64,000 nucleotides of DNA from Amphibalanus amphitrite (taxonomy: Eukaryota > Arthropoda > Thecostraca > Balanomorpha > Balanidae). The notes under the pieces are model-generated. The model did no database searches. It was not told where the DNA came from and saw only the letters and a program-made list of their open reading frames with translations. Positions 1,795 through 64,000 of the stretch are shown here, piece by piece. Position 1 is the first letter of the stretch. Every line of letters begins with the position of its first letter. Made by a program: the position numbers and the translations under genes. The stretch spans positions 62,001 to 126,000 of the forward strand of contig NW_024882904.1 in the NCBI RefSeq assembly GCF_019059575.1, written 5' to 3'.

Positions 1795-2975
1795 TTAACC
1801 CGCGCCCCAATGGGATCGGGATCTGTGTATAACACGCCCCACTGGGGAGGGGGGGGGGCTATTCATAGCCCCCTCCTAACTTCAAAATTACTGGGCCGAT
1901 CGTCCAAATTCAAACGGCATTTGATAGCCCCTGAAAACCTGTTGAGCGGATTCTAATTTCATTGACCTCAAGGTCACCGATGACGTCACAGGTCAGGTCA
2001 AAGTAAAAATTATTGATTATTGGCTTGTTCACTTTTTGGGCTCTGGCTGCCGTCTTACAAGTCAGATCAGGCTGATTTTTGGTTTACACACTCGTGAACA
2101 GATGCTTTAGATACCCTGAGGGTACTAAGCTTATACTTTGATTTTCAGGTCAGGGTCAGGTCATCATAGGTCACGGAAATCTTATGTCATAAGTCGGTCA
2201 CGTGACACATGTTTTATCGTCCATTTAGGCCATATATTTCTAATTCGGTGTCGCCTGTGTCATTTGAGGCCATTTTCATCTTAATATGGCTGAGGTCAAG
2301 TCACGCTCAGGTCAAAAAAGGTCAATTTTCAAAGTTGAAATTTTTCAACAAAAACATTTCTATCGGATGCAGTTGGAGCTCAGAAACACAATGGTGCTAT
2401 TTATATTGGTGTACGATATCAAAAACGTACCGAAAAATTGATTTGATAAATTTATAATTGTGATTTCTTTGCAATAATGCGTATAACTTGGCTATTTTTG
2501 AAGATATTTAGCTAAAACTTGCTAGAGTAAGTCATAACCATGTGTTCTATCACATATATTCCAGTTTTTTTTTCGAAAATAAAAAAGACAAAAATATAAA
2601 CATATAAATTTTGAAATTTATTATATATACTTCTCAAAATTTGCAAATTTTTGAAAATCCGTGATAGAAGTGTGATAGCGCAGTCTATTATGAGTCCTCT
2701 CATGCAAAGAAATTGGATCTAGCTTAAAAACTGAGCTCTTGGGAGCGATTGCCGTGGTTCAATGTTTTGCGTCGAAATCGGACGAACATGACGTCACTCT
2801 GACGTCATTTCCGGCCGACCTATGGTAGCTACGAAGTTCATATTTTAACGCAAGGTGTCAAATTGATGCAGCCAAAGGTATTGAAAGTTTGGCGTCGATA
2901 CGTCAAGTGGTTTGGAAGTTATTGCAGACAAACGGGAGGGGGCTATGAAGCCCCCCCCCGTGGGGCGCGGGTTAA
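1795..2975 (+). mobile_element. TTAA-flanked non-autonomous element, family A copy 1
   Basis: Bounded by TTAA at 1795-1798 and 2972-2975, with ends reading inward CCCGCGCCCCA on both sides. Just inside each end is a G-tract/C-tract hairpin whose spacer is itself complementary (CTAT..ATAG on the left). No transposase is encoded. The interior is rich in AGGTCA/TGACCT and TGACGTCA words. A related copy in the opposite orientation lies at 40227-41421. The TTAA duplication fits piggyBac- or Kolobok-type transposition, but the source of transposase is unknown. Confidence 0.8.
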
Positions 2976-3088
2976 CAAGAAGATGAAACTTACAGGATTG
3001 AGTGATCTTCCGAGCCATCAAAACTTGTACATCTCGGACTTTTGATAAAGTTCACCTCATTTCAGGTCAGTCACGTGACCTTACCATT

Positions 3089-3976
3089 TTAACCCGCGCC
3101 CTGATGGGGTCTGCCGAGCAACGTGGTCTGATGGGGGGGCATTTTGGCCCCCCTTAAGATCTCGAGAACCACGCACCATAGCGACAAGCGGCAAACGGCG
3201 TTGGATAGCCCCAACGGGGAACTACCTTGTGACCCAATGTCATTGACCTCGGTCTAACCGATGACGTCACAGGTCAGGTCAAAGGTCGAATTTTCACCGT
3301 TTACAGGCATTTCAAGAAATGCGTTGTAAAAATGCGTTGTATTTTTAATTTGTGACCCTCAGTAACCTTACCTCTGTGACCTGACCTGGTATCAGTGACC
3401 TCAAATAGCAAAATATGTGTTTGAAGAACATTTCGTCATTAAGAGTGTGACGTCATTTATGACGTCATTAGGGTCATATTAGTTTTTCGTCAATAACCGA
3501 TCAAGTTGGGCTAGCGAGGCGGAAAAGCCACCAATGGACTCAGGAAGACCTGCCGAATCGATTGCTATGCGACATGACTTACTTCGACCAATTTCGTGAC
3601 CTGGGGGCGCTGACCTGACCTTGACCTGAGGTCAACACCCCAAGTTGACCTCATACACACAAAAAGTATATCATTCGACGTGCCAGAGCAAGGCGAGCAC
3701 GATGCTGCCCAAATCGCGGCTCTGCGACCATGTATTGCGAAATTATTCACCAAAAACGGAACCGTACCTTGGGGCCCTTGACCTGACTTCAGAGGTCACC
3801 GGTTGACCTAGGACCTTAAAACCGGGTATCAGTCTCTGCGTCTCGTAACGGCGCACACGCTCGTTTTTTCCGCGACGCGCTAGCTCCACCAGGGGCGAAA
3901 CGGCGGGGGGTCGTACCCCCCCCCCCCCCCTCGGCCGGCGTGTATGTAGAAAACCAATAGGTCCGGCGAGGGTTAA
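3089..3976 (+). mobile_element. TTAA-flanked non-autonomous element, family B copy 1
   Basis: TTAA at 3089-3092 and 3973-3976. The left end reads CCCGCGCCCTGATGGGG; the right end reads inward CCCTCGCCGGACC, so the two ends are less alike than in other copies and the unit may be a recombinant. G/C-tract hairpins lie near 3133-3153 and 3904-3932. The segment 3400-3700 is a reverse-complement relative of 33.95-34.14 kb plus 35.06-35.27 kb, where another element has inserted. Confidence 0.65.
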
Positions 3977-4028
3977 AGACTCATAACCGCAAAGTATAAT
4001 CTGTTTTCAATAACTAACAGTGTGTTTC

Positions 4029-4195
4029 TTAACCCGGCGGCCGCTGGGCCTCCGCACCACCCGTCAGCCGCTGAAGGGGGGCGGTGCATATAGTTGCCCC
4101 CCCCTTTACTTCTGCGACGATTCGTCGCAACGCGAAGAGATAAAGAGACGAAACTTCGCACACATCTTCCTGAATACCTAGCCGAGGTTTTTAAC
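4029..4195 (+). mobile_element. left part of a TTAA element, interrupted
   Basis: Begins with TTAACCCGGCGG at 4029, then a G-tract (about 4075) and C-tract (about 4097) as in the other TTAA elements. It runs into the palindrome at 4242-4828. The body appears to resume after 4829 with TGACGTCA words. The right end was not located. Confidence 0.5.
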
Positions 4196-5178: not shown

Positions 5179-6136
5179 TTAACCCTAGAACGCCTAGGGG
5201 GGGGGGGGTTGTATCAACCCCCGCCCCCCCCCCCCCCGAGGTTTTTTCGAAGTGCACGCTAAACGGCTTGTCGTAGCGGCCTGAAATTTTCAATACCCTC
5301 TGGGGCAACCTTTGCGCATCTTTTGCCGAAAAAAATTGATCGGGTCATGTCAGGTCACGGAATTATGACGTCATAAGAGGTACAGCCTCCGGCCGACAGT
5401 TACCAAACGTGTGCGCCGAATCCCTAGGTTTTCTGCCGGCGATACCCACATTGTTTGATGGATCATGATGAAACTTCCCATGCATGTTCAGGCAAGCATT
5501 GGCTATCGTGTGGTGCAAGAAAATTGACCGGGTCAGGTCAGGTCACGGAGCTATGACGTCACAAGAGGAACAGCGTCCGGTGCTATTTTTGAAAAGCGCC
5601 CGAACCACTATTTTGCTAATTCTTGTCACCTCAATGGGAATATGCAGCAATATTAGCTTCTATAGGGAGCAAATGGACCTCCCAAATCCAAAAATACAAT
5701 CAGATTTCAAAAATTTTTATTTTGATTTTTCGAATTTCTGCCGCCGACTGTGACCTTGCCGACTTCCGGCGCTCCCAACGCGCCATTTTTAGAGCTAGGG
5801 AAACGAAATACATACCAAACGATAGAGAATTGATCAAGGAACACGATAGTGAAGGTTTTAAGTCGATATCTCCCACCGTTTTGCCGCAATCGCCGCGGAA
5901 AGTTGAAAAAGTTTGATTTTTTCGGAAAATTTGACCTTTGACCGGTCATAAGTAGGTCAAATGTTGACCTAGGACCAAAAAGTATACCACCAATCGCGAG
6001 ATCTCGTTAAGAGCAATCCGTTGGTTTTTTCCGCTAAGCTCTACGACCTTCCGTTTCGAAACGCCAGGGGGGGTCGTAACAGCCCCCCCCCTGGTCGTTC
6101 GTGTTATGAGAAATGGCCTGGTCGTGCGAGGGTTAA
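5179..6136 (+). mobile_element. TTAA-flanked non-autonomous element, family D copy 1
   Basis: TTAA at 5179-5182 and 6133-6136. Subterminal hairpins: a G-run then TTG..CAA then a C-run at 5199-5236, and a second near 6066-6092. The right half (5700-6092) is the inverted relative of 34190-34560, and the left part the relative of 34860-35040, so this family has a second full copy at 34137-35057. No coding capacity. Confidence 0.8.
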
Positions 6137-7014
6137 CCCTATTAGTGGCAGGGGGGGTTGTTTTCATCCACCCCTCAGGTTTTTCGGGAATATCTCCGAA
6201 ACCGCTGAAGCTACGATGCTGAAATTTTCTGACTTTTCCTAAAACTAAATTGGGCACATTCCCTGACAATGTCAAGTTCATAACTTTACCAGGAGCGGCT
6301 CCAGAGTACTGGGAATTGGGGGGTCCTATTCGTGAAGCGAGTCATTTGGGCGAAGATCACGATGCTGGACCAGTTTTACGAACAGTGAATGAAAGGTATC
6401 ATGTGATAACATATACAGTTATTGTGCATCCTCTTTTGACACGTTTTTGCTATAACAGGCGGATCCAGGCGTCCAAAAAGGGGGGTTATGTTTTACCTCC
6501 TAACATAGGTGCCCTGACACCGCCTATGCATGACCAATACAATTGTAGTCGTTCTCTCATAAGAAAATTCTAACATAACAAGACCATTACCACCCTTTTT
6601 AGAAACAGTACCAACAAAAACCTTATTTACTATACTTTTTGTGTACCCCCAATCTCAATGATCTGTATCCGCCTATGATTTTTGAAAATGCATATTTTTA
6701 GGATCCATGTGAATTCCTGGTACATTCTCTATCGATCGGCAAAAGTTGCGTTAAGATTGGTTCAGAAACCTGGCCGTGATAAACAGTCTAAAATGTATCT
6801 GCAATTTGCCCTTTTTACCCCCCTCTACCCCCCCCCCTATTGACATTTTTTAATTCTTATTTTTTAGAAATGTAGATCACGTTGAGCGAAATCGAATGCC
6901 GTTTGAATTTTGAAAATCGGCCCGTTAGATCTCGAGATATCAAGGGGGGGTCGTAAACAGCCCCCCCCCTGCCACTAATAGGGGTAGCCAGGAGCCTGCC
7001 ACTAATAGGGTTAA
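6133..7014 (+). mobile_element. TTAA-flanked non-autonomous element, family E
   Basis: The left end TTAACCCTATTAGTGGCAGG at 6133 is matched by the inverted right end, CCACTAATAGGGTTAA, finishing at 7014. A second internal copy of GCCACTAATAGGGG lies at 6970-6984. It shares the TTAA at 6133-6136 with the preceding element, so one inserted at the other's end. The spacer hairpins are weaker here. No coding capacity. Confidence 0.8.
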
Positions 7015-8929: not shown

Positions 8930-9817
8930 TTAACCCTCGCCCGTATAGGGGGGGGGGGGGTCGAACGGACCCCCCCTCGGTTTTTCGCGAATAACTCGCG
9001 TAAAAAGCGGCCGATCGCGACGAAACTTTCAGTACCCTCGCGTTAATCAATTTTACACCTACCCTGAAATTTTCATGACCCTGACCCTAATGACCTTTGA
9101 CCTGTGCCCTACTTTTCGAGACCATGTTTGGCCGGAATCGCGATTCGGCATATGTCGGCTCGCATTAGCCGCGCGTTTGCAGTCTTTTCGTGGTTTTAAG
9201 CGTTCAAACATGGGATCTGATGTTGCTCCTATCCATTAGGGTGGGTGTCAAGGTCACCGGAAGGTCAGGTCAGGTCATTGACCTTTGATGACCTCGGTTC
9301 ACTTTTCCGAGTTTTACATGTTTCTAGGCCAGTTTTTGGAGCTGAATTCGAATTTGGCAACCATATGAACATTTACGAAGTAGTTTTAGCACCTTCGTAA
9401 CATGTTACGAAGCTGTCAGAGGCGGTTGCCACCTACTACGAATACCCTTACTGGTTGACCTGACCTGACCTGACCCAACCTGGCCTAAATGCATGAAGAC
9501 ATCATCTGTGATCAAAACTAACATGATATTCGTGATCAGCACCCCGAAAAACCTCATAACAGCCACGCTTTACGACTTTCTAACAGGTCCCGATTTTCCC
9601 GACTTTTGGGTCATTGACCTGACCTGGAAGGTCAACCGATGACCTAGGACCTTAAAATTGGGTATCATCGGCTTTCTCTCGTCACGGGCAACACGCTCGT
9701 TTTTTCCGCGAAGCTCTAGCTCGATCAGGGGCGAAACGGCAAGGGGGGGTCCAACGGACCCCCCCCCCCCCCTTATACGTTCGCGGCTGTAAAAACACCA
9801 ATACGGGCGAGGGTTAA
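8930..9817 (+). mobile_element. TTAA-flanked non-autonomous element, family F
   Basis: TTAA at 8930-8933 and 9814-9817 with matching inverted ends CCCTCGCCCGTAT. Hairpins with complementary inner stems stand at both ends (TC..GA on the left, TCC..GGA on the right). The right 200 bases resemble the right end of family B (3770-3976), including CACGCTCGTTTTTTCCGCG. The inside has many AGGTCA/TGACCT words. Confidence 0.85.
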
Positions 9818-17188: not shown

Positions 17189-18374
17189 ATAACCCGGCCG
17201 GGCCCGGGGGGTAATCCCAACCACCGCAGCCCGGGGGGGGCGTTTTTCGCCCCCCCTGTCTAACTCCGTAAATAAGAGAGCTACGGAAACAAAAGCGATA
17301 CCAAACGAAAGGTCCTTACGAGACGATTCTAATGCACCTAAAATTTTTGACCTCAGGTCAATTTTCAAGGTCAGAGGTCAAGGTCAAAGGCCAAAACCGG
17401 CACATGTGTAGTGATCTCAAAGTAAGCCTTCTAGAGGACGGCAGGCTGCATCAAACCGGCAAAATTGGGTGTCAAACGAAAGAAGAGAATCTGAGAATTC
17501 TGAAAATGTGCTCTAAATCAAAGGTCAAGGTCAAGGTCACGCTCAAAATTGACCTCAAACTTGGCACTTTTTCGCACATCTTGCGTGCTAACTTCCAAGA
17601 TGTTTTGAAATGTTTTGAGGCTTATCAGTTCCCTATTTGTGGTTCATCTTACGATACAAGGCTGCTCAAAGGTCAAGGTCACACAAGAGTATCCCTGCTA
17701 GAGGCTATTTCACTTATTAAGTTAGTAATAATAAATAAGACAATTTTGCCATCCGGAAGCTCTAAATGAAGGCTTAGAGGAAAATAGATGCCAGATTCGT
17801 GATCAGCGGGTACAAATCCATCATAAACGACCTTTCATGTGTCAAGGTCAACCAGAGGTCATTCGAGGTCACATGAGGTCAACATGAAACTTGACCTTTT
17901 CCGAACAAAATATATATCATTCGACGCGGCTTGACAAGGCGAATGCGATGGTACCACTGCCGTAGCTCTAGGACCATTTTTGTCGAAGTTATTTGCGAAA
18001 AACTAAAACCACATTTCGGGGTCGTTGACCTGACCTCTGACCTCAGGTCACCAAAACTATTTTTCTATTTTTCTCTAGGTCAAACGCTACACAGCCGTGC
18101 TCGTAATTTGTCTTTATCTCTAAAACTCTATTTTTAGCAGCTATTTGAAGTTTGCGTCTGTGACGCCGAAGTTTGCCGTGCAGGGGTCTAGAAAAATGGA
18201 CCTTGTGACGTCATCAAGGGGGCTAGGTCCAAATTTTTTACTTCAAAAGATGTCAAATTGATGGGAGAAAATTTACTGAAAGTTTCGCCTTCCTATCCCT
18301 AAGCGTTCGGGAGTTATCGCAAATATTCGCCAGGGGGGGCGAAAAACGCCCCCCCCCGGGCCCGCGAGGGATAA
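17189..18374 (+). mobile_element. G/C-hairpin element with ATAA target duplication
   Basis: The element is 17193-18370, with ATAA on both sides (17189-17192, 18371-18374). Its ends are C-rich, with hairpins GCG-TTTTT-CGC inside G and C runs at 17222-17258 and 18330-18358. The 145-residue plus frame at 17332-17769 only reads through AGGTCA words and is not a gene. Confidence 0.75.
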
Positions 18375-31913: not shown

Positions 31914-32814
31914 TTATCCCGCGAGTTGCTGGGGGGGGGGGGGCGTAAAGCGCCCCCACTTTTTAGCCGCGCCATAGCATATTTGGGTACCTGTAGGGAA
32001 TTAATTGATGTTTATTGTGACATAGTTTCAAAAAATCGGTCGGAATTTTTTTGAGATATCGAGGTTTTAGTGACATCATGATTTCTGAGTTTTCGACCAA
32101 AAACGGCATACCTATGTTCAAAAGATCATAAAAACACAGAATAGAAATACGGACATGCCGTAAACGGCATTAGACTGCCAATACCATGAACAATCAAATG
32201 GCTATCTTCGATTATTGATTATCGTTCCGCATTTTCCAAAATCTTGAATTGAATCTTGGCAATTTCTCGTGACTACTTCACGACTATGATACATGCATTT
32301 CTTAATTGAACTTTTTGAGCCAAACACGTACACATATGATAACATGAATGTTACCATCGTGTTCTACGCCCAAAATTACCCATAAAACATGTGTCACAGG
32401 CTGCGAATATCAGTTTTGATTTTCGGGGATATGTGCCTACCCGGTTGACCTGACCTTGACCCTGACCTATGCTTGACTGACCCCTACATGGCGCTGACAC
32501 TCTTGTAGGCCTTATATATAGGATTGTGCACCGTTTTGACAGAGTTTATGACGAGAGGCGCCCATTGCGAAGTCCTGAAGTCCATGCTACTGAAAGCCCG
32601 ATTTCAGGTGTTTGACCTGACCTTGACGCGACCTGTGACCTTAAAATTCAATCTTAAAGTACTCATCTGAAGCGTCTTGTCGCGCCTTTCGTTTGCCGCC
32701 TCATGCGTTTCGCTGTGCCTATTGTTTCTCGAGTTATCGGCTGGGGGTGTTTAACGCCCCCCCCCCCCCCAGCAAACGGCGGGTGGCGAAATACCCCAAC
32801 AACTGCCGGGTTAT
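31914..32814 (+). mobile_element. TTAT-flanked G/C-hairpin element, family H copy 1
   Basis: TTAT at 31914-31917 and 32811-32814. The left end is CCCGCGAGTTGCTGGGG; the right reads inward CCCGGCAGTTGTTGGGG. Hairpins: GCG..CGC-type at 31928-31957, TG..CG wobble type at 32745-32770. The right 190 bases recur inverted at 36970-37130. No coding capacity. Confidence 0.75.
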
Positions 32815-33781: not shown

Positions 33782-35270
33782 TTAACCCTCACCGGACCTT
33801 TAGGTTTTCTGAATAACGAGGGGGCGTTGGGGGGTTGGAAGTGAGGGAACAACCCCCTTCGCCGATTCGCCCCTAATTGAGCCCCTTGAGCTAGCCCCAC
33901 GAAAGAACGATCGTGTGCGTCGTTACGAAATGCAGCGATTGGTCTCCGATTTTAAGGACTAGGGTCAGCCGATGACTTCTGAGGTGAGGTCAAGTGGCCC
34001 AAGGTACAGGTTCGGTTTTTGGTAAATAACTTCGCTAAAAATGATCGCCGATCAGCGATTTTAGCAGCATCCTGTTTGTCTGGCTCAGGCGTGTCGAATG
34101 GTATACTTTTTCTTCGGGTGAGATCAACTAAAGGTGTTAACCCTCGCCCGTAAACGGTGTTTTGCCACCTTCGCCCATGCAGGGGGGGGGGGGTGTTGGT
34201 GCGACCCCCCTGGCGTTTGAAAACGGAGCGTCGTAGAGCTTAGCGGAAAATACCAACGGATTGCTATCAACGAGATCTCGCGATTGGTGGTATATTTTTG
34301 GTCCTAGGTCAACATTTGACCTACTTATGACCGGTCAAAGGTCAAATTTTCGAAAAAATCTAACTTTTTCAGAGTTCCGCGCCGATTGCAGCAAAACGGT
34401 AAGAGATATCGACTTAAAACCATCACTATCGTGATCCTTGATCAATTCTCTATCGTTTGGTGTGTATTTCGATGTCATAACTCTAAAAATAATGCGTTGG
34501 GAGCATCGGAAGTCTGCAAGGTCATTTGTGCATTGGGTCACGTCAGGCGTGTGACGTCACTGACCTGACCCTGACCCAAAATGAACTACAAGAAACAACC
34601 GACGATGTCTGAAATGGATAGCAAATTCAAATTCAGGGCATCAAAATACCCCGAAAAGGCATACAAGTGCAAGAAGTCATTACAGGTCAACCGAGGTCAC
34701 CGACCTTACCTTGACCTTTAGTAAGCTTCAAAATGTCAACGGACATTGTGCCAATGTCAAATCAGCCAGTTGTGATTCTAAAACAATCCATCAGTGTGTC
34801 AGGTCAGTCGGCATTTATACCAATGTGAAGCAATCTCCAATTTAGCGTAAATCTGGCCGGAGGTTGTTCCCTTTATGACGTCATAACTCCGTGACCTGAC
34901 ATGACCTTGACAAAAAAAAAACCAAAAGTTGCGCAAAGGATGCCCCAGAGGGTACTGAAAATTTGAGCAGGCTATCAGAAACGGTTCGGCGTGTAGCTAA
35001 GAAAAACCTCAGGGGGGGGTTGCACAACCCCTCCCCCCCTACATGGGCGAGGGTTAACCTCGGGGCAAGGTCAGGTCGTAGCCCGTCAGGTCACGGAGCT
35101 GGTCAAAGGAGGTCATATTGCATATCAATCGATTCGGCAGGTCTTTCGATGTCCATTAGTGGCTTTATCGACTCGGTAGCTTCTGTTGATCGGGAGTTAT
35201 TGACGAAAAACTGATAGCCTTAGTAACGTGATAAATGACGTCACGCAAGATCAACAATGCAAAAGAGAAG
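33782..35270 (-). mobile_element. family B-like TTAA element, interrupted
   Basis: TTAACCCTCACCGGACC at 33782 matches the inverted right end of 3089-3976. 33950-34136 plus 35058-35270 together match 3400-3830 in reverse. The interruption, 34137-35057, falls exactly at TTAA. Its far end beyond 35270 is unclear. Confidence 0.7.
34137..35057 (-). mobile_element. TTAA element, family D copy 2, nested
   Basis: TTAA at 34137-34140 and 35054-35057. Inverted relative of 5179-6136 over most of its length. Hairpins at 34180-34212 and 35008-35038 (GTTG..CAAC). The paralogous empty site in 3640-3660 reads GTTGACC where this copy has GTTAACC around the insertion. Confidence 0.85.
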
Positions 35271-36966: not shown

Positions 36967-37290
36967 TCAACCCGGCAGTTGCTGGGGTATTTCGCCACCC
37001 GCCGTTTGCTGGGGAGGGGCGTTAAACGCCCCCAGCCGATAACTCGAGAACCAATTGGCGCAGTGAAACGCACGAGGCGGCAAACGAAAGAACGCGACGA
37101 GACGCTTCAGATGAGTACTTAAAAAATGAATTTCGAAGTCACTGGTCGGGTCAAGGTCAGGTCAAACACCTGAAATCGGGCTTTCGGTAGCATGAACTTC
37201 AGAACCTCGATTGCCGCTTACTGCGTGTCGCTACCAGGAGCCAAGTTAGGAGCCAGGTCGCGTGAAAACGCCCGCCCGCCCCCCCCCCCC
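36967..37290 (-). mobile_element. family H element, partial inverted copy
   Basis: 36967-37130 is the reverse complement relative of 32640-32814 (ACCCGGCAGTTGCTGGGG, CACCCGCCGTTTGCTGG). Its hairpin has GCGTT..AACGC where copy 1 has a G-T pair. The other end is missing or lies near the C-run at 37277-37293. Confidence 0.65.
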
Positions 37291-40226: not shown

Positions 40227-41421
40227 TTCACCCGCGCCCCACTGGCGGGGGGGCTATTCATAGCCCCCTTCCTGTTTTTTCTGCAATAACTTCCAAACCA
40301 CTTGACGTATCAACGCCAAACTTTCAGTACCTTCGGCTGCATCAATTTAACGCCTTGTGTCAAAATTTGAACTTCATAGCTACCATAGGTCGGCCGAAAA
40401 TGACGTCAGAATGACGTCACGTTCGGCCGATTTCGACGCAAAACATTGAACCACGGCAATCACTCCCAAGAGCTCAGTTTTTAAGCTAGATCAAATTTCT
40501 TTGCATGAGAGGACTCAGAATAGACTGCGCTATCAAACTGCCATCTCGGATTTTCAAAAATTTAAAAATTTCGAAAATTATCCATAACAAAATTCAAAAT
40601 TTAAACTTTATATTTTTTTCTTCAAAACTTTTTAACTTTTCAAAAAAAAACGGAATAAATGTGATAGAACACTTGGTTATGACTTACTCTAGCAAGTTTT
40701 AGCTAAATATCTTCGAAAACGGCCAAGTTATACGCATTATTGAAAAAAATCACAAATATAAAGTTTCAAATCAATTAATCAATTTTCCAGTACGTTTTTG
40801 ACATCATACACCAATATAAATAGCACCACATCGTGTTTCAGAGCTGAAACTGCATCCGATAGACATGTTTTTTGTTGAAAAATTTCAACTTTGTAATTTG
40901 ACCTTTTTTTACCTGAAAGTGACCTGACCTCAGCTATATTCAGATGAAAATGGCCTCAAATGACACAAGCGACACCGAATTCGAAATCTATGGTCTAAAT
41001 GGACCATAAAACATGTGTCACGGGACCAACTTATGACATAAGATTTCCGTGACCTATGATGACCTGACCCTGACCTGAAAATCAAAGTACAAGTTTGGTA
41101 CCCTCAGGGTATCTAGAGCATCTGTTCACGAGTGTGTAAACCAAAAATCAGCCTGATCTGACTTGTAAGACGGCAGCCAGAGCTCAAAAAGTGAACAAGC
41201 CAAATATCGATAATTTTTACTTTGACCTGACCTGTGACCTCATCGGTGACCTCGAGGTCAATCAAATTAGGTTTCGTTCGACAGTTTTTCCGGGGCTATC
41301 AGATGTCGTTTGAATTTTGACGATCGGCCCATTAGTGTCGGAGTTAGGAGGGGGCTATGAATAGCCCCCCCCCCCCCCAGTGGGGCGTGTTATACACAGA
41401 CCCCAGTGGGGCGCGGGTTAA
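40227..41421 (-). mobile_element. TTAA-type element, family A copy 2
   Basis: Inverted relative of 1795-2975 through almost its full length. The right flank is TTAA (41418-41421); the left is TTCA (40227-40230), a decayed or variant site. The CTAT..ATAG hairpins are kept at both ends (40246-40268 and 41350-41378). Confidence 0.85.
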
Positions 41422-49399: not shown

Positions 49400-50597
49400 T
49401 TAACCCGCGCCCGGCTGGGGGTCCTGGATTTCCACGCCCTGCTGGGGGGGGGGTGTTTGAACACCCCCCCTTGTAACTCGGCTCCTGGGCCACGTAGCGA
49501 TACGCGGAAAGCGGCGTTCGAAAGAGCGCCAAAAATAATGACGAAATCACTTCGGTCAATTTTTTGTTCAGGTCAAAGGTCAGGTCACCAGAGGTCATTG
49601 AAGGCAAAATTTCGCCGATTTCCAGGTGAAATGTCGAAAATTTCCAAGAAGCCAACGCATAACTCGGGAACCAATAGAGCTACAGCGCCGCGGAAAAGCG
49701 CATTCGATAGCCCTATTAACGCCCTTTCTGAGTAGTTCTCTCAGATTTGACCTAACGTAAACGGTTTTGCCTGCAGGGGGCAAAAACTGCAAAAATAGCC
49801 GATTTTTTCGGAAACAGTTTTTCTGCAATAACTTTTGACCCAAGCCTTGTACGAGCTTACTTTTACCGGCATCGTGTTCCTCTCGTCAAGATGCATCGAA
49901 TGAACTATAACTTGACCTTGAAAGGTCAACTTGAAAATTTGACCTCAGGTCAAGGTCATGACCTGACCGGAAAGGGTCATGTTGCATATCAGTCGATCCG
50001 TATCGTCGAGCTGAACACATCTAAGGCGTTTTCATCGCTCTAGCATGCCTCTATCAAAAGTTATTTGCGAAAAAACTGTTAGCTACCATTCGTGACCTAA
50101 GATGACCTCAGGGCATAAACAGGGGTCACGGACACCATTTTCATGTTCAGTGTGTCTAAACCACTTATAATTCGGTGTTTGGGAGTGTTTATAATGTCTT
50201 TCGTCCAAAAGAGGCGCATTTCAATTTTCTCCCATTGACTTATAATGGGGAGGTCGCAAAATTGATCTGACCTTAGGTCATCGATATCAAAATTCTGAGA
50301 TATACATTTTGTACATGCTATTGCTCTTAGCAATCGCTGAAAGTTTCAAAGCGATCGGTCACTCGGTGTAGCTATGACAGACATTGAAACTTTTTATGAG
50401 GTGAGGTCACTTCAAGTGACCTGGTGACCTGACCTTGAATGACCTTGGTCTGAAATTTTTACAACATGTGTAGAATTGATGTATGATAAGGTGTACCAAA
50501 AACGGCGGCGCTCCGTGCCGCCGTTTTTGAGATATTCGCGAAAAACCACAAGGGGGGTGTTCAAACACCCCCCCCCCCCCAGCAGGGCGCGGGTTAA
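49400..50597 (+). mobile_element. TTAA element, family K copy 1
   Basis: TTAA at 49400-49403 and 50594-50597. Ends CCCGCGCCC, hairpins TGTT..AACA within G and C runs at both ends (49443-49470, 50551-50580). The right 650 bases are the inverse of 63352-64000. No coding capacity. Confidence 0.85.
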
Positions 50598-51389: not shown

Positions 51390-54300
51390 GATATCGTTCA
51401 AAATCTCAGGAATGATGCTCCTTGACCTCCTGAACATGAAAATGGTACTCCCTTTGAACGCCGTCAAGAACTTTTCCAGATATACGCATCCATGCACATT
51501 CAAATTACATAGGTGTTGCATATGGACGTTCGGCGGACCCCTCCGATTTCGTTCAAAATCTCAGGAATGATGCTCCTTGACCTCCTGAACATGAAAATGG
51601 CACTCCCTTTGAACGCCGTCAAGAACTTTTCCAGATATACGCATCCATGCACATTCAAATTGCATAGGTGTTGCATATGCACGTTCGGCGGACCCCTCCG
51701 ATTCCGTTCAAAATCTCAGGAATGATGCTCCTTGACCTCCTGAACATGAAAATGGCACTCCCTTTGAACGCCGTCAATAACTTTTCCAGATATACGCATC
51801 CATGCACATTCAAATTGCATAGGTGTTGCATATGCACGTTCGGCGGACCCCTCCGATTTCGTTCAAAATCTCAGGAATGATGCTCCTTGACCTCCTGAAC
51901 ATTAAAATAGTACTCCCTTTGAACGCCGTCAAGAACTTTTCGTGATATACGCATCCATGCACATTCAAATTGCATAGGTGTTGCATATGCACGTTCGGCG
52001 GACCCCTCCGATTTCGTTCAAAATCTCAGGAATGATGCTCCTTGACCTCCTGAACATGAAAATGGTACTCCCTTTGAACGCCGTCAAGAACTTTTCCAGA
52101 TATACGCATCCATGCACATTCAAATTGCATAGGTGTTGCATATGCACGTTCGGCGGACCCCTCCGATTTCGTTCAAAATCTCAGGAATGATGCTCCTTCA
52201 CCTCCTTAACATGAAAATAACACTCCCTTTGAACGTCGTCAAGAACTTTTCCAGATATACGCATCCATGCACATTCAAATTGCATAGGTGTTGCATATGC
52301 ACGTTCGGCGGACCCCTCCGATTTCGTTCAAAATCTCAGGAATGATGCTCCTTGATCTCCTGAACATGAAAATAGTACTCCCTTTGAACGCCGTCAAGAA
52401 CTTTTCCAGATATACGCATCCATGCACATTCAAATTGCATAGGTGATGGATATGCACGTTCGGCGGACCCCTCCGATTTCGTTCAAAATCTCAGGAATGA
52501 TGCTCCTTGATCTCCTGAACATGAAAATGGTACTCCCTTTGAACGCCGTCAAGAACTTTTCCAGATATGCGCATCCATGCACATTCAAATTGCATAGGTG
52601 TTGCATATGCACGCTCGGCGGACCCCTCCGATTTCGTTCAAAATCTCAGTAATGATGCTCCTTGACCTCCTGAACATGAAAATGGTAGTCCCTTTGAACG
52701 CCGTCAAGAACTTTTCCAGATATGCGCATCAATGCACATTCAAATCGCATAGCCGTGTTGCATATGCACGTTCGGCGGACCCCTCCGATTTTGTTCAAAA
52801 TCTCAGGAATGATGCTCCTTGATCTCCTGAACATGAAAATGGTACTCCCTTTGAACGCCGTCAAGAACTTTTCCAGATATGCGCATCCATGCACATTCAA
52901 ATTGCATAGGTGTTGCATATGCACGCTCGGCGGACCCCTCCGATTTCGTTCAAAATCTCAGTAATGATGCTCCTTGACCTCCTGAACATGAAAATGGTAG
53001 TCCCTTTGAACGCCGTCAAGAACTTTTCCAGATATGCGCATCAATGCACATTCAAATCGCATAGCCGTGTTGCATATGCACGTTCGGCGGACCCCTCCGA
53101 TTTTGTTCAAAATCTCAGGAATGATGCTCCTTGACCTCCTAAACATGAAAATAAGACTCCCTTTGAACGCCGTCAAAAACTTTTCCAGATATACGCATCC
53201 ATGCACATTCAAATTGCATAGGTGTTGCATATGCACATTCGGCGGACCCCTCCGATTTCGTTCAAAATCTCAGGAATGATGCTCCTTGACCTCCTGAACA
53301 TGAAAATAGTACTCCCTTTGAACGCCGTCAAGAACTTTTCCAGATATACGCATCCATGCACATTCAAATTGCATAGGTGATGCATATGCACGTTCGGCAG
53401 ACCCCTCCGATTTCGTTCAAAATCTCAGGAATGATGCTCCTTGACCTCCTGAACATTAAAATAGTACTCCCTTTGAACGCCGTCAAGAACTTTTCGTGAT
53501 ATACGCATCCATGCACATTCAAATTGCATAGGTGTTGCATATGCACGTTCGGCGGACCCCTCCGATTTCGTTCAAAATCTCAGGAATGATGCTCCTTGAC
53601 CTCCTGAACATGAAAATGGTACTCCCTTTGAACGCCGTCAAGAACTTTTCCAGATATACGCATCCATGCACATTCAAATTGCATAGGTGTTGCATATGCA
53701 CGTTCGGCGGACCCCTCCGATTTCGTTCAAAATCTCAGGAATGATGCTCCTTCACCTCCTTAACATGAAAATAACACTCCCTTTGAACGTCGTCAAGAAC
53801 TTTTCCAGATATACGCATCCATGCACATTCAAATTGCATAGGTGTTGCATATGCACGTTCGGCGGACCCCTCCGATTTCGTTCAAAATCTCAGGAATGAT
53901 GCTCCTTGATCTCCTGAACATGAAAATAGTACTCCCTTTGAACGCCGTCAAGAACTTTTCCAGATATACGCATCCATGCACATTCAAATTGCATAGGTGA
54001 TGGATATGCACGTTCGGCGGACCCCTCCGATTTCGTTCAAAATCTCAGGAATGATGCTCCTTGATCTCCTGAACATGAAAATGGTACTCCCTTTGAACGC
54101 CGTCAAGAACTTTTCCAGATATGCGCATCCATGCACATTCAAATTGCATAGGTGTTGCATATGCACGCTCGGCGGACCCCTCCGATTTCGTTCAAAATCT
54201 CAGTAATGATGCTCCTTGACCTCCTGAACATGAAAATGGTAGTCCCTTTGAACGCCGTCAAGAACTTTTCCAGATATGCGCATCAATGCACATTCAAATC

Positions 54301-56475
54301 GCATAGCCGTGTTGCATATGCACGTTCGGCGGACCCCTCCGATTTTGTTCAAAATCTCAGGAATGATGCTCCTTGATCTCCTGAACATGAAAATGGTACT
54401 CCCTTTGAACGCCGTCAAGAACTTTTCCAGATATGCGCATCCATGCACATTCAAATTGCATAGGTGTTGCATATGCACGCTCGGCGGACCCCTCCGATTT
54501 CGTTCAAAATCTCAGTAATGATGCTCCTTGACCTCCTGAACATGAAAATGGTAGTCCCTTTGAACGCCGTCAAGAACTTTTCCAGATATGCGCATCAATG
54601 CACATTCAAATCGCATAGCCGTGTTGCATATGCACGTTCGGCGGACCCCTCCGATTTTGTTCAAAATCTCAGGAATGATGCTCCTTGACCTCCTAAACAT
54701 GAAAATAAGACTCCCTTTGAACGCCGTCAAAAACTTTTCCAGATATACGCATCCATGCACATTCAAATTGCATAGGTGTTGCATATGCACATTCGGCGGA
54801 CCCCTCCGATTTCGTTCAAAATCTCAGGAATGATGCTCCTTGACCTCCTGAACATGAAAATAGTACTCCCTTTGAACGCCGTCAAGAACTTTTCCAGATA
54901 TACGCATCCATGCACATTCAAATTGCATAGGTGATGCATATGCACGTTCGGCAGACCCCTCCGATTTCGTTCAAAATCTCAGGAATGATGCTCCTTGACC
55001 TCCTGAACATGAAAATAGTACTCCCTTTGAACGCCGTCAAGAACTTTTCCAGATATACGCATCCATGCACATTCAAATTGCATAGGTGATGCATATGCAC
55101 GTTCGGCGGACCCCTCCGATTTCGTTCAAAATCTCAGGAATGATGCTCCTTGATCTCCTGAACATGAAAATGGTACTCCCTTTGAACGCCGTCAAGAACT
55201 TTTCCAGATATGCGCATCCATGCACATTCAAATTGCATAGGTGTTGCATATGCACGCTCGGCGGACCCCTCCGATTTCGTTCAAAATCTCAGTAATGATG
55301 CTCCTTGACCTCCTGAACATGAAAATGATACTCCCTTTGAACGCTGTCAAGAACTTTTCCAGATACGCGCATCAATGCACATTTAAATTGCATCCGTGTT
55401 GCATATGCACGTTCGGCGGACCCCTCTGATTTCGTTCAAAATCTCAGGAATGATGCTCCTTGACCTCCTGAACATGAAAATGGTACTCCCTTTGAACGCC
55501 GTCAAGAACTTTTCCAGATATACGCATCCATGCACATTCAAATTGCATAGGTGTTGCATATGGACGTTCGGCGGACCCCTCCGATTTCGTTCAAAATCTC
55601 AGGAATGGTGCTCCTTGACCTCCTGAACATGAAAATCGCACTCCCTTTGAACGCCGTCAAGAACTTTTCCAGATATACGCATCCATGCACATTCAAATTG
55701 CATAGGTGTTACATATGCACGTTCGGCGGGCCCCTCCGATTTCGTTCAAAATCTCAGGAATGATGCTCCTTGACCTCCTGAACATGAAAATAGTACTCCC
55801 TTTGAACGCCGTCAAGAACTTTTCGTGATATACGCATCCATGCACATTCAAATTGCATAGGTGTTGCATATGCACGTTCGGCGGACCCCTCCGATTTCGT
55901 TCAAAATCTCAGGAATGGTGCTCCTTGACCTCCTGAACATGAAAATGGCACTCCCTTTGAACGCCGTCAAGAACTTTTCCAGATATACGCATCCATGCAC
56001 ATTCAAATTGCATAGGTGTTGCATATGCACGTTCGGCGGACCCCTCCGATTTCGTTCAAAATTTCAGGAATGATGCTCCTTGACCTCCTGAACATGAAAA
56101 TGGTACTCCCTTTGAACGCCGTCAAGAACTTTTCCAGATATGCGCACCAATGCACATTCAAATTGCATAGGTGTTGCATATGCACGTTCGGCGGACCCCT
56201 CCGATTTCGTTCAAAATCTCAGGAATGATGTTCCTTGACCTCCTTAACATGAAAATGGTACTCCCTTTGAACGCCGTCAAGAACTTTTTCAGATATACGC
56301 ACCCATGCACATTCAAATTGCATAGGTGATGCATATGCACGTTCGGCGGACCCCTCCGATTTCGTTCAAAATCTCAGGAATGATGCTCCTTGACCTCCTG
56401 AACATGAAAATAGTACTCCCTTTGAACGCCGTCAAGAACTTTTCTAGGTATACGCATCCAAGCACATTCAAATTG
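51390..56475 (+). repeat. 155-bp satellite array, left arm
   Basis: About 33 head-to-tail monomers of 155 bases (157 in some with CCGTGTTG). Each contains GACCTCCTGAACATGAAAAT, CCAGATATACGCATCCATGC and CGGACCCCTCCGATTTCG. Small frames of 60-92 residues recur on both strands in each monomer because of the repeat; they are not genes. Confidence 0.95.
51845..55008 (+). repeat. 1,554-bp higher-order duplication within the array
   Basis: The ten-monomer block from about 51845 repeats from about 53399. Diagnostic variants recur at a spacing of exactly 1,554 bases: CTTCACCTCCTTAAC (52196, 53750), GATGGATATGCACG (52443, 53997), ATCGCATAGCCGTG (52745, 54299). The match ends near 53454/55008. Confidence 0.9.
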
Positions 56476-56489
56476 CAATTTGAATGTGC
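56462..56489. repeat. palindrome centre of the satellite foldback
   Basis: TGCACATTCAAATTG runs directly into its own complement here, so the orientation of monomers flips with no spacer. Confidence 0.9.
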
Positions 56490-57990
56490 ATGAATGCGTA
56501 TATCTGGAAAAGTTCTTGACGGCGTTAAAAGGGAGTACCATTTTCATGTTCAGGAGGTCAAGGAGCATCATTCCTGAGATTTTGAACGAAATCGGAGGGG
56601 TCCGCCGAACGTGCATATGCAACACCTATGCAATTTGAATGTGCATTGATGCGCATATCTGGAAAAGTTCTTGACGGCGTGCAAAGGGAGTACCATTTTC
56701 ATGTTCAGGAGATCAAGGAGCATCATTCCTGAGATTTTGAACGAAATCGGAGGGGTCCGCCGAACGTGCATATGCAACACCTATGCAATTTGAATGTCCA
56801 TGGATGCGTATATCTGGAAAAGTTCTTGACGGCGTTCAAAGGGAGTGCCATTTTCATGTTCAGGAGGTCAAGGAGCATCATTCCTGAGATTTTGAACGAA
56901 ATCGAAGGGGTCCGCCGAACGTCCATATGCAACACCTATGCAATTTGAATGTGCATGGATGCGTATATCTGGAAAAGTTCTTGACGGCGTTCAAAGGGAG
57001 TACCATTTTCATGTTCAGGAGGTCAAGGAGCATCATTCCTGAGATTTTGAACGAAATCGGAGGGGTCCGCCGAACGTGCATATGCAACACGGCTATGCAA
57101 TTTGAATGTGCATTGATGCGCATATCTGGAAAAGTTCTTGACGGCGTTCAAAGGGAGTACCATTTTCATGTTCAGGAGATCAAGGAGCATCATTCCTGAG
57201 ATTTTGAACGAAATCGGAGGGGTCCGCCGAACGTGCATATGCATCACTTATGCAATTTGAATGTGCATGGATGCGTTTATCTGGAAAAGTTCTTGACGGC
57301 GTTCAAAGGGAGTACGATTTTCATGTTCAGGAGGTCAAGGAGCATCATTCCTGAGATTTTGAACGAAATCGGAGGGGTCCGCCGAACGTGCATATGCAAC
57401 ACCTATGCAATTTGAATGTGCATGGATGCGTATATCTGGAAAAGTTCTTGACGGCGTTCAAAGGGAGTGCCATTTTCATGTTCAGGAGGTCAAGGAGCAT
57501 CATTCCTGAGATTTTGAACGAAATCGGAGGGGTCCGCCGAACGTGCATATGCATCACTTATGCAATTTGAATGTGCATGGATGCGTTTATCTGGAAAAGT
57601 TCTTGACGACGTTCAAAGGGAGTACCATTTTCATGTTCAAGAGGTCAAGGAGCATCATTCCTGAGATTTTGAACGGAATCGGAGGGGTCCGCCGAACGTG
57701 CATATGCAACACCTATGCAATTTGAATGTGCATGGATGCGTATATCTGGAAAAGTTCTTGACGGCGTTCAAAGGGAGTGCCATTTTCATGTTCAGGAGGT
57801 CAAGGAGCATCATTCCTGAGATTTTGAACGAAATCGGAGGGGTCCGCCGAACGTCCATATGCAACACCTATGTAATTTGAATGTGCATGGATGCGTATAT
57901 CTGGAAAAGTTCTTGACGGCGTTCAAGGGGAGTACCATTTTCATGTTCAGGAGGTCAAGGAGCATCATTCCTGAGATTTTGAACGATATC
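56476..57990 (-). repeat. 155-bp satellite array, right arm
   Basis: About ten monomers in the opposite orientation to the left array, followed by the mirrored unique outer arm. Confidence 0.95.
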
Positions 57991-58566
57991 GGAGGGGTCC
58001 GACCATGTCCGACAAATTTGCTTTATGTGTTGGAAGTTCGAATATCCCTTGTATTTAACTGTTAGCCATATGAAAGAGGTTTTGACGCTTTTTTTATATG
58101 TTGGTACAGCAACGCCCCTTGGATTTCAGTATATTGTCTTTGTAGGAGGAAGTGCGAATATCCATCATAAATATAAAGCTGTCACGTGTCAAATAGCGCC
58201 AAAAGGTGAGAAAAGGTACATGACCTTGAACGACCTTGAACTTTAGATGCTCATCCTGAGAAAACTATGGGACGGCGTTAAGTACAAATTAGTTTTTTGG
58301 TAGCAGCGTTTATGTTTACATCAACTCAGGAGTTTTTGAAAAATTTGGAGGGGTCCGATTTTTCCAATAAGGGTTACGCTCCAGAATATGTTAGCAGTAA
58401 TACAAATGTGAATATTTTGAGAACCACTTGACGGCGTGAAATAAAAACATGATTTTCGCAATCAGGAGCTCAAAATCTATAAGCTGTGCAATTTTGAGCC
58501 AAATCTGAGGGGTCCGCGAAGGTGCACGCGAATCTGAATGTGAATATAATGCAACTTTATGCACGT

Positions 58567-59007: not shown

Positions 59008-61052
59008 TTAACCTTCAAGGCGGTGGGGGGATTTTTTTGCCCCCCCCCCCCTTTAGTTTTTTCGATATATCCCCAGAACCGATGCGCCGATCGTCACCAA
59101 ACTTTCAGTACCCTCCCGTGAACAGCTATTACACATCGTGACCAAATTTTTTCAAAGGCTATGACAGGTTGGCCGCTAATGACGTCAGAGTGACGTCATT
59201 TATGCCATTTTCGACCAAAAAAAAAGTTTCGTGGGAAGAGCTGTCAGGCCTACAGCTTTAGAGATACAGAAAAATGTTTAAGATATAAAAGGTGTAGAAT
59301 CAAAAGTGCTACAAAACTGCCATCTCGGATTTTTGAAATTTTTATTTTGACCCCCAAAAATCAAAACAGATTTTTTAGATATAATAGCCGAAAAATCCAA
59401 AAAGTTTTTTGAATTTCGAAAAACGGAATATATGTGATAGTCCCTACCGCCGTCTATCTACATACCAATTTTGAGATCGATGCCTCTTTTTTTGGCCAAG
59501 TTATAGCGAAAAAAAACAGTTCAAAATTGATGACGTCAAATTTTCAAACTCATTTTTTTAGCAATTCTAGACCTCGTAGCGCAAAACAAAGACCATCATT
59601 AGACTCCCCGTGACGAGCTGCATCGAATCAATACCCATTTTAGGCAAAACTATCAACTTTGAAATTTGACCTCTTTTGGCCTGACCTTGACCTGACCTCC
59701 ACCAGAAAGTGACCTAAACCGTACCTGATGGTCTTATTACGAACACCATTGAGTTGAATATGAAAAATTGGCCATAAAACATGCATCGCACAACCTTAAC
59801 CCTCGCCCGCACATGCCATTTTCCCATCCTAGAACGCACATGGGGGGGGGGGGGGGTTGCCACCCCCCCGCGCCATTTCGTTCCTGTTGGAGATAGAGCT
59901 TAGCAGTAAAGACCAAAAAGATTCTTTGGGAAGAGACAAATCCAATGATACCCAGTTGTACCTTCTCAGGTCAGTCATTGACCTTCCAGGTCAGGTCAAA
60001 CTAAAAAATGTTGCTGTTTTGGGTCACCGTTGGATATCAGGTGCGCTGCTTATCAAATACCGATGACGATGCTGTTTTCTGGTGCCAAGCCAGCTAGAAC
60101 CTCTTTGTCGCACTATCCGACCAGAATTTTGCTGCTGAGGTCATTTCAGGTCAAGTTAGGTCAAGGTCAATTATATGTGTTTGTATGTCTGTGTGTGTCT
60201 GTGTGTATACTGATGTGTGCACCGATTGTTTTTGGGTCCATATCACATGAAATCATGTTCTGAGAAGCTTTTACCAAAAATGCAGTCAAAAAACTTCACA
60301 AAAAGTAAATTCAGCTTGCCTAAAACGCAATTATCTTAGATGACCTAGGTTGACCTTGACCCTGACCTTGACCCCTGTACATCGTCGAACAACATGTTCC
60401 ATGATAGGTGGGAGGTAAGACTGGCAAAAAAGGCCGAAATCAGGGTGTCAAAAGCTCACAAGGCCCATGGCAAACGCAAGATGTTGAGAATTGGCCATTT
60501 GGGTCATGACATGACCTGAAAAACAAGGTCATATCTCCGAAAACAAAAATCACAGAAGCTTGAAATTTTCAGTGGACATCAAGAAAGGATAGACGAGCAG
60601 CTATACGAAAAATCAGCCTTCTAGCTCTAAAAATGTTGAGTGTGGAGCAGAAAGACTGCCTGGGGGGGTGGCAACCACCCCCCCCCCCCATGTGCGGGCG
60701 AGGGTTAATAAAGTTGGGTTCATGTGGTGGCCCTTGGTGACCTGACCTGTGACCTGACCTGGTATGACCAGTGACCTCTAATAGCAACATATTACTATAC
60801 AACTGACGCCCTATCGCTGATTTTCGACAAAATGCGTTTTACTCGGTGTTATAGCGCTTTCCCTAGAAGACCCGTGAACGGTGAAACATTTTATCTTTGA
60901 CCTGACCTGTGACGTCATCGGTGACACCGAGGTCAATGAAATTTGGTTTCCTTCGACAAATTTGACAGGGCTATCGAACGCCGTTTGAATTTTCCAGATC
61001 CGTCCAGTAGTTTCGGAGATACCGGGGAATGCCCCCCCCCCCCACCCCTAGT
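59008..61052. mobile_element. TTAA element, interrupted by another
   Basis: The left end TTAACCTTCAAGGCGG at 59008 is followed by G-run and C-run (59025-59053). The right part (60709-61052), ending in a C-run, resembles 3230-3420 and 41220-41380. The insertion of 59796-60708 splits it. The right TTAA is not visible. Confidence 0.55.
59796..60708 (+). mobile_element. TTAA element, nested, family L
   Basis: TTAA at 59796-59799 and 60705-60708; ends CCCTCGCCCGCACATG and its complement. Hairpin TGG..CCA at 60661-60690 and a shorter one at 59841-59870. AGGTCA words are frequent. A TGTGTG run lies at 60177-60215. Confidence 0.85.
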
Positions 61053-61600: not shown

Positions 61601-61794
61601 TTGAAAACATATCCCGGATCGCCTTTATTTATACTTTCAGTTTTATAAAAATTAAGGCGCACATTCTGGAAAGTCCTTGTACTCTGCACTTTCTCTTCGT
61701 ACTCTGCATCACAGTTCAATCACACCATTAGCAAGGAAGACGTGTATTTTGAAAGACATCGCGGTGTGGCGTTGCGGACGGCCGCCATCAGCGC

Positions 61795-62010
61795 GTGCGC
61801 CGGCCGGGCGACGGCGCCGCCGCTGCCAGAACGGCTCGGCTGACCCGTGAGACGCTGAGACGCCCCTACTCAGCGGGTGTTGGCAGAGCTACAGCAGCAC
61901 TTTCTTGCGGAAGGGCATGTGCTCTTGGTTCGTCATCATCCAAGACCACATCGTCCTCCTCTGATGAGGAAGACAGCAACCTCTTTGGCGGCCTGGGAAC
62001 ATCACATTAA
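61795..62010 (+). CDS. uncharacterised 71-residue frame with an acidic Ser tail
   Basis: An ATG frame of 71 residues ending SSSSDEEDSNLFGGLGTSH. The N-terminal half is Arg/Ala-rich and the tail Ser/Asp/Glu-rich, which is unlike the surrounding element DNA. It might be a small exon or chance in a GC-rich patch (61770-61860). No splice context, promoter or homology could be judged by eye. Confidence 0.15.
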   Translation: MRRPGDGAAAARTARLTRETLRRPYSAGVGRATAALSCGRACALGSSSSKTTSSSSDEEDSNLFGGLGTSH

Positions 62011-63351
62011 ATATTGTAAGATCGATTGTTTTAGTACTTTGTGCTGATGAAGTACAAACAACACATATAACCTGATTAGCTTTGCAATGGTTTTGCCTAT
62101 CCTCCAGAGAAAAGGCACAATGATCTATGGAGTGATACTAAACAAGCACATCCAACCACAAGTGCAGTGCAAAACAAGTAAAAACAACACAGCGAGCTTC
62201 AATCAAATCATGTAAAACATAACTCACCTAGTGTAGCTATAGTAAATAGACAGTAAATTCTACAACTACAATTCAAAATTGACCACCGCAATATGAAAAA
62301 CTCCTTAGTACTCAACAAGAACGAAACACTGCGAGCGACTGGAGCGGAAATGGGACACATGCGGCGCCGTTTTTAAAGAAAGCCGCGTAAGTCGTAACAT
62401 AGCAATAGTTTGAGCCTTGGGAAAATGTTAACAGTTATACAATAATTGCTAATAACGTAATTTTAAAATTAACATCTTACAAAAATAAACTTAAAATTCT
62501 TTATCTAAAATAAAATTCTAAAATTCTTTATTGGCCGTTTTCACGACGGAATAGCAGGCATCTATTTGATACCAATATAATCCTTTGGTTCCTCAGGAAT
62601 TTTAGTAGTTCTTTTTAGTAGGTTTACCAGCTTTCGAATGAATGGCGCGTTAGTTTGCTATTTTTCTATTAAATATCACATCGATTTACTTTATCTAAGG
62701 ATTTATCACTAACATCAACATAAAGCGTAAGCACAATTATAAAATTATGAAATTATTAAATACTAGTACAATAGTTAAAGAAAGATACTGAATTGCCACA
62801 CTACAAAAGATATATTCATTTATGGCGCACGACAGACATTTAGAAAGCAGCGCCCTGTTTTATTGCACGCTGCTAGCCGCTTCCATTGGGTTTTGCAGGC
62901 CGACGTCATTGGTTGTTACACGTATGATGTCACGCGACTTGTGGCCTATCACGGCTCTTTAATGATCTCCACTAAATGAATGCAACAATGGCCTTTTAAG
63001 TTGATATCTGTGGCCATCTGTCTATGGAGCGACCAATATGAAAGTTAGATGAATTTACCGGGGTTACATGACTATGAGCAAGCAAATGTGTATCAGGAAT
63101 GGATTCAGGTGGAGAATTGCGCTGGACCATGTGAGTGCTCGAGCGCTCCCAATTCCACGCCAGTTTGGCTTTGGAGCCGAGACAGACGATGCGGGTCAAG
63201 GTCACCGCTGGGGTAACGCTGGATTGGCTGCGCCCGAGCACCCGTAACGCGGCACGATTCTCCATCTATAGATTTTCCTATTCGCTCAGCATTGTGATAC
63301 CTAGGTGTTCGTAATAGCAATTACTCTGCTTATGTACTTATCCCCGGTTAT
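62011..63351. other. anonymous sequence, no gene seen
   Basis: AT-rich; short AAAATTCTTTAT repeats at 62490-62530. The minus frame at 62996-63265 has no recognised features. TGACGTCA-like GACGTCAT at 62904. Confidence 0.4.
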
Positions 63352-64000
63352 TTAACCCGCGCCCTGCTGGGGGGGGGGGTGTTTGAACACCCCCCCTTGT
63401 GGTTTTTCGCGAATATCTCAAAAACGGCGGCGCGGAGCGCCGCCGTTTTTGGTACACCTTATCATACATCAATTCTACACATGTTGTGAAAATTTCAGAC
63501 CAAGGTCATTCAAGGTCAGGTCACCAGGTCACTTGAAGTGACCTCACCTCATAAAAACTTTCAATGTCTGTCATAGCTACACCGAGTGACCGATCGCTTT
63601 GAAACTTTCAGCGATTGCTAAGAGCAATAGCATGTACAAAATGTATATCTCAGAATTTTGATATCGATGACCTAAGGTCAGGTCAATTTTGCGACCTCCC
63701 CATTTAAGTCAATGGGAGAAAATTGAAATGCGCCTCTTTTGGATGAAAGACATTATAAACACTCCCAAACACCGAATTACAAGTGGTTTAGACACACTGA
63801 ACTTGAAAATGGTGTCCGTGACCCTTGTTTATGCCCTGAGGTCATCTTAGGTCACGAATGGTATCTAACAGTTTTTCGCAAATAACTTTTGATAGAGGCA
63901 TGTTAGAGCGATGAAAACGCCTTAGATGTGTTCAGCTCGACGATACGGATCGACTGATATGCAACATGACCCTTTCCGGTCAGGTCATGACCTTGACCTG
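63352..64000 (-). mobile_element. TTAA element, family K copy 2, cut by the window end
   Basis: Begins TTAACCCGCGCCCTGC, then the TGTT..AACA hairpin (63367-63402). It is the reverse complement of 49950-50597 with few differences to the last base, so the rest should lie beyond the window. Confidence 0.85.

Follow-up and report, generated by a model that had tools for sequence, protein, structure and literature searches.

The left end of the Trichoplusia ni (T. ni) piggyBac transposon contains a 19-bp palindrome at bp 17-33, with a two-fold axis at about bp 25, and it is the duplex form of this palindrome that is bound by a dimer of C-terminal zinc domains (cysteine-rich domains, CRD); in the right end, an insertion and a duplication make bp 34-63 nearly the same as bp 7-35 of the left end (PMC7351741, in its accessible parts). 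The piggyBat transposon of Myotis lucifugus has imperfect subterminal palindromes on its left end only, also bound by a CRD dimer (PMC11707139, PMC13405395, accessible parts), while the coral elements called CMITE are TTAA piggyBac-type miniature inverted-repeat transposable elements (MITEs) of about 100 bp, in which families differ more in their terminal repeats than in the interior (PMC2872659, accessible parts). Here we describe piggyBac-like MITEs of Amphibalanus amphitrite, found in a stretch of 64,000 nucleotides (contig NW_024882904.1, positions 62,001 to 126,000, forward strand), which is called the window throughout, and in further samples of the same genome.

Like T. ni piggyBac with its LE35/RE63 ends (left end, 35 bp; right end, 63 bp), these MITEs combine TTAA, a CCC-tipped short repeat and a subterminal palindrome at both ends, with an axis that falls near bp 25 for the commonest G-run of two genome listings, and their other end is shifted by about 28 bp and holds a partial copy of the repeat; unlike it, as the accessible parts of PMC7351741 describe it, they are non-coding, their arms contain G- and C-runs whose lengths vary, and a single genome holds many versions of the arms. 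They share the imperfect subterminal palindrome of piggyBat, but have one per end. With the CMITE elements they share the TTAA piggyBac type, but not the small size, and covarying palindromes are not described in the accessible parts of PMC2872659.

The pattern is strong and real, and its cause is largely known: these are subterminal palindromic transposase sites of piggyBac-like MITEs. We give a probability of roughly 0.8 to the reading, derived from our analysis of the sequences, that the palindromes are sites of two-fold symmetry at which a transposase of the piggyBac type docks on double-stranded DNA, in elements that are non-autonomous. Its observed basis is the layout of the ends, the target duplications, the covariation, the identity of arms across ends and the intact piggyBac genes in the genome, from which we infer the binding of a zinc-domain dimer and the identity of the transposase. 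So far as the literature search shows, three things are new: the form with G/C runs, how many versions coexist, and the apparent re-addressing of bodies that are nearly identical. In that search, whose reach excluded most subscription papers, none of the titles and abstracts dealt with covarying palindromes of the G/C-run kind in piggyBac MITEs.

Inner arms that covary and recur at both ends

The hairpins were sought in a 264-kb sample, formed by the 64-kb window and 200 kb of the same genome (807.55 Mb), the latter being twenty 10-kb stretches chosen blind, one fixed position on each of 20 large contigs. Hairpins were defined as at least five G, a spacer of 3 to 20 nt and at least five C, so that every hairpin is readable on both strands, and were tagged as ends when TTA[AT]CC[CT] stood at most 70 bp upstream, on the outer side; this tag misses ends with other flanks, such as those at 17233, 40247 and 37018. 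The pattern yielded 156 strand-readings, of which 58 carry the outer tag (22 in the window, 36 in the 200 kb), with G-runs of 5-18 and C-runs of 5-14 among the tagged rows and an outer run that is often the longer. An earlier note on this DNA had described, within TTAA- or TTAT-flanked elements, a G-run and a C-run separated by a spacer whose ends are complementary, and this arrangement is present at all 14 coordinates that it named, although the G-run at 37018 is broken by an A.

The same note held that the inner arms differ by family while their pairing is kept, and the counts agree. Among 37 distinct family spacers, Watson-Crick pairs occupy 75 of the 111 cells of the three inner pairs (20,000 shuffles gave a mean of 38.7 and a maximum of 57), and 17 of the 37 are fully paired, against 1.6 on shuffling. 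For the 25 distinct nine-base spacers, with both ends counted, the covariation score is 0.871, against 0.328 (standard deviation 0.066) in shuffles that, like those above, ignore the relatedness of the spacers, and it does not exceed 0.247 when the pairing partners are slid. Paired cells make up 85.3% against 56.5%, and double-change cells number 29 against 11.8. Two coarser measures on these 25 spacers do not stand out: pairs changed on both sides (3 against 2.8 shuffled; 417 of 500 shuffles) and further pair types (11 against 8.9; 50 of 500 shuffles). The series TCG-ATG-CGA, TTG-ATG-CAA, TTG-GTG-CAA, CAG-GTG-CTG and CGG-ATG-CCG gives an idea of the changes, with a constant centre and swapped outer pairs. 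Of the copies listed within a family, most retain a single palindrome, as for TGTTTGAACA (15 of 17), TAAATTTTA (11 of 12), CGGATATCCG (7 of 7) and CCTCAGGAG (7 of 10). One example from the earlier note fell away, namely the 'G-T versus G-C' pair between 32750 and 37018, where only one side differs, in one copy, and no compensating change is present (the pair reads T.G on one strand and C.A on its complement).

The two ends of one element have these arms in common: 70 of 84 bases agree, against a shuffled mean of 28.4 and maximum of 53 (0 of 20,000 as high). Only 105 of 350 bases agree between ends at positions 6-30 inside the C-run, and the ends are therefore not merely long inverted repeats. 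In one pair of relatives, L004d and L007a, identity is 87-88% through both ends, yet the arms differ at both, TAAATTTTA in place of CAG..CTG. In three families the centre of the palindrome is inverted between ends (the pairs CAGAATCTG/CAGATTCTG, CCGAAACG/CCGTTTCG and TCGAACGGA/TCCGTTGGA; the elements are L007, L022 and window 8930-9817), a change that a dyad site tolerates.

Layout, target sites and abundance

Curation of 22 end pairs produced a set of 18 elements, 16 kept as they were and two with one end corrected, the four others being dropped because they joined different families. All 18 have one short and one long end, and their flanks are TTAA on both sides in 14, TTAT in two, ATAA in one and TTCA/TTAA in one. 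The elements and ends in the window are the following, no strand being assigned to whole elements:

1795..2975, MITE, TTAA each side; palindromes 1849-1873 (long end, CTATTCATAG) and 2938-2959 (short end)
3089..3153, forward strand, long end of the CCCGCGCCCTGAT family; G/C hairpin 3133-3153
5179..6136, MITE, TTAA each side; palindromes 5197-5222 (short end, TTGTATCAA) and 6067-6091 (long end, CTGTTACGA read inward)
6133..7014, probable MITE of the CCCTATTAGTGGC family, outside the curated 18; long-end G/C hairpin 6944-6969
8930..9817, MITE, TTAA each side; palindromes 8948-8976 (short end, TCGAACGGA) and 9743-9772 (long end, TCCGTTGGA read inward; centre inverted)
17189..18374, MITE, ATAA each side (TTAT on the other strand); palindromes 17233-17256 and 18333-18357 (CGTTTTTCG)
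31914..32814, MITE, TTAT each side; palindromes 31931-31957 (short end) and 32743-32770 (long end)
34137..35057, probable MITE, end repeats not identical, outside the curated 18; hairpins 34182-34210 (long end) and 35012-35039 (short end)
36971..37033, forward strand, long end of the CGTTAAACG family, flank CTCA; hairpin 37011-37033
40231..41421, MITE, flanks TTCA on the left and TTAA on the right; palindromes 40247-40268 and 41350-41378 (CTATTCATAG)
49400..50597, MITE, TTAA each side; palindromes 49444-49470 (long end) and 50552-50580 (short end), TGTTTGAACA at both
59796..60708, MITE, TTAA each side; palindromes 59842-59869 (long end) and 60662-60689 (short end, TGGTTGCCA read inward)
63352..63396, forward strand, short end of a TGTTTGAACA-family MITE; palindrome 63369-63396

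The segment at window 3089-3976 has TTAA on each side, yet two long ends from different families, and is perhaps a chimera or two truncated copies. By eye, a motif GGTACTGAAAGTTT..CGATCGG..GAGTTAT recurs next to the palindrome, on its inner side, in otherwise different families, for instance at window 8977-9060.

A further copy of the CCCTATTAGTGGC family (882 bp including both TTAA) is nested in L007, and the uninterrupted relative L004d has the matching empty site, a single TTAA that is duplicated around the insertion. TTAT was considered as a special target and set aside, the forward counts being 335 for TTAT, 335 for TTAC and TTAG together and 12,720 for TTAA; at about twice the average of TTAC and TTAG, TTAT would mostly represent rare off-target insertion or mutation. 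Three elements nonetheless have TTAT or ATAA on both sides. The terminal repeat of 13-14 bp starts with CCC, followed by T or G, and in 14 families 167 of 182 bases are the same at both ends; in 9 of the 14, the 8 bp that precede the G-run also match between the short and the long end at five or more positions. For comparison, a piggyBac criterion is a 12-19 bp terminal repeat with CC[C/T]T (PMC2872659, accessible parts). The piggyBac features found in the MITEs are the TTAA duplication, the short CCC-tipped repeat and an end asymmetry of the T. ni type. Seamless excision through 4-nt hairpins is a further trait of that superfamily.

With d as the distance from the flanking TTA[AT] to the G-run, genome-wide counts on the forward strand, controlled by the reversed pattern, gave 12,720 short ends (d=13; control 4) and 24,223 long ends (d=39-43; control 4), against 310 matches at the in-between spacing of d=27-31 (control 8), which makes the start of the G-run bimodal. 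All but one of the 58 rows from the 264-kb sample have a d of 12-17 or 39-55, the exception being 27; in this row (63369), as in one with d=55 (L012), a second tag precedes a true TTAA that has d=13. Because the long-end count may be doubled for the other strand, we infer about 48,000 elements of about 1 kb each, or about 6% of the genome.

In the genome listing for the 13-bp repeat the commonest G-run is G7 (15 of 74 rows listed, d=13), with a second broad peak near 10, and in that for the 14-bp repeat it is G6 (9 of 31 rows listed, d=14), so that both commonest runs end at bp 20 (d + G-run = 20) and place the axis of a nine-base spacer at bp 25. The contrast of G6 and G7 between the listings has a Fisher P of 0.0075, in a comparison picked after the peaks were seen. 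Longer runs would be products of slippage, starting from about 7 with the 13-bp repeat or about 6 with the 14-bp repeat.

piggyBac-type transposases in the same genome

A search of the genome with PF13843 (DDE_Tnp_1_7) scored 116 matches among 232 candidates; open frames of 560-690 codons are frequent among the matches, and several of them fall into groups of equal score. By our grouping of these scores, the genome has about 30 transposase families. Compared with solved structures, the L024 protein is closest to piggyBat (4.4e-31), followed by piggyBac (7.5e-21), and all eight whole transposase loci have a cysteine/histidine-rich C-terminal stretch, of the CRD type by eye. The equal-score gene groups lie on many contigs, which suggests recent activity, and one match is located on the contig of the window itself (C1407:162962-164068).

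The left ends inferred beside these genes, for which the left flank alone was used except at L024, include palindromes without G/C runs at an axis of bp 24.5: GTGTCCTCATATGAGGACAC (L024, 10 of 10 pairs), GACGTACATAAATGTACGTC (L036, 9 pairs), CGTATCATTTATGATACG (L037, 8) and GTATAGATATCTATAC (L049, 8). A weak palindrome at the same position, TGGACATTTTTGTCCA, was found at L044, L046 and L048 (6 pairs; at L044 tied with three other axes).

Some hairpins near transposase genes were considered as the transposase's own ends and discarded. The G/C-hairpin end at L028 sits outside the element's own right end, the hairpin at L034 belongs to the end of an adjoining MITE, and those at L040, L042, L047, L057 and L061 are without a TTAA tip at the proper distance.

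Duplex docking weighed against the alternatives

If the palindromes are docking sites on the duplex, the core of the dimer would read the outer 13 bp, and the two zinc domains would read the half-sites on either side of an axis some 25 bp inside the tip. The palindrome of the long end lies about 27-28 bp further in, accompanied by an incomplete second copy of the terminal repeat, and would serve a second dimer. Since a single protein would read four half-sites, its preferred sequence should be inverted within each site and repeated at the other end; when the specificity of a family shifts, the four half-sites would change together, in a manner that resembles base-pair covariation.

The earlier note had gone from the kept pairing to the conclusion that the folded form matters. 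The covariation behind that argument stands, and transposase recognition is its likely cause, but the step to the folded form is unsupported, because a symmetric dimer on a duplex palindrome gives equal covariation. That selection acts on the hairpin or cruciform itself, whether through transposase recognition, replication or the handling of single strands, is in our judgement unlikely. This reading agrees with a sequence that varies while pairing persists, and the four hairpins tested as single-stranded DNA do fold better than shuffles (z from -2.0 to -4.3); hairpin or cruciform binding has also been raised as an open idea for the piggyBac-derived PGBD5 (PMC12324416, accessible parts). Folding alone, however, requires neither the same arms at both ends nor two fixed tip distances, while sequence-specific dimer binding explains the common arms; these, the distances 27-28 bp apart and the inverted centres are all explained by a dimer and not predicted by folding. 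The lengths of the G- and C-runs are often unequal within one copy, by inspection of the rows, and there is no clear preference for wobble: of the unpaired cells, 14 of 36 could wobble on one or other strand (GT 9, AC 5), near the 4 of 12 possible kinds, although the numbers are too small for a decision. Nothing pointing to replication or single-strand handling was seen, in an analysis that had no test aimed at them.

A mutational origin of the covariation seems slightly less probable still. On this reading, template switching inside an imperfect palindrome would let one arm serve as the template for the other, at times with the loop flipped, and pairing would need no selection; the centre inversions in three families are in line with it. 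Against this, most listed copies within a family keep one palindrome, and a switch at one end leaves the other end unaltered, yet both ends share arms. Template switching may instead supply the changes on which selection acts.

Kolobok and Sola3 are superfamilies with TTAA duplications as well, and TTAA by itself is not decisive, but an origin of the elements in either is very improbable, given that the CCC tips, the 13-bp repeat and the 28-bp end asymmetry fit piggyBac and that the genome holds the scored DDE_Tnp_1_7 matches. Single-strand transposons (Helitron, IS200/IS605 type) have no target duplication and no terminal inverted repeats, and the elements, which have both, do not match them.

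Recognition of the palindromes as duplex by a transposase dimer also has observations that weigh against it. The arms of L004a are unlike at its two ends, and the spacers of some families are non-palindromic in register (CGGGTACGA, CCTCAGGAG, CTATTTTTTG, ATTTTTTTG). L004b and L022a, 86% alike in the body, have different arms at both ends (CCATTTTGG and CCG..CG), but their first 143 bp are only 66% alike, so that exchange of whole ends, rather than a change of arms, may explain this pair. For the short ends in the 264-kb sample, the sum of d and the G-run is most often 26 and equals 20 in just one row out of 24, which puts the axis of many copies near bp 31; if the copies with long G-runs moved, the spacing rule is loose. 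No clear bp-24.5 palindrome was found at the left ends of L025, L028, L032 and L035, nor at any of the six autonomous right ends examined, none of which had its best axis at 52-53. Finally, the search for the partner transposase found none: it covered 43 loci or flanks (8 complete loci, 20 upstream flanks and 15 downstream flanks), and no transposase among them had a G/C-hairpin end of its own.

A more tentative extension, which we consider possible but rather doubtful, is that the palindromes form a modular address, with constant G/C arms and a swappable inner half-site of 3-5 bp. MITE bodies that are almost identical would then have gained new addresses as all four half-sites changed in concert with the tip repeat. 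Each version would follow a piggyBac transposase of its own, and a single genome would contain a natural table of keys and locks for the zinc domain of piggyBac. How the palindrome is recognised as duplex has been solved for two transposases, whose sites are unrelated (PMC7351741, PMC11707139, accessible parts). Here, the 25 nine-base spacers and several ten-base ones coexist with about 30 transposase families, and sites paired with zinc domains could yield a recognition code; the collection may also show how non-coding elements switch helper. More generally, base-pair covariation in DNA calls for caution, as it can stem from dimer binding rather than folding.

The window has other features besides these elements. 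A 155-bp satellite occupies 51379-58001, and its unit appears reversed at about 56475, by eye, as in a head-to-head array. Adjacent 10-bp tandem arrays at 20156-21748, GACTCAGACC and TGAGTCGGTC, are apparently mutual reverse complements and form a large inverted repeat, also by eye. A tyrosine recombinase at 28032-29201, which we take to be Crypton-like, has matches to DUF3504 and Phage_integrase, along with a sub-threshold match to QRICH1.

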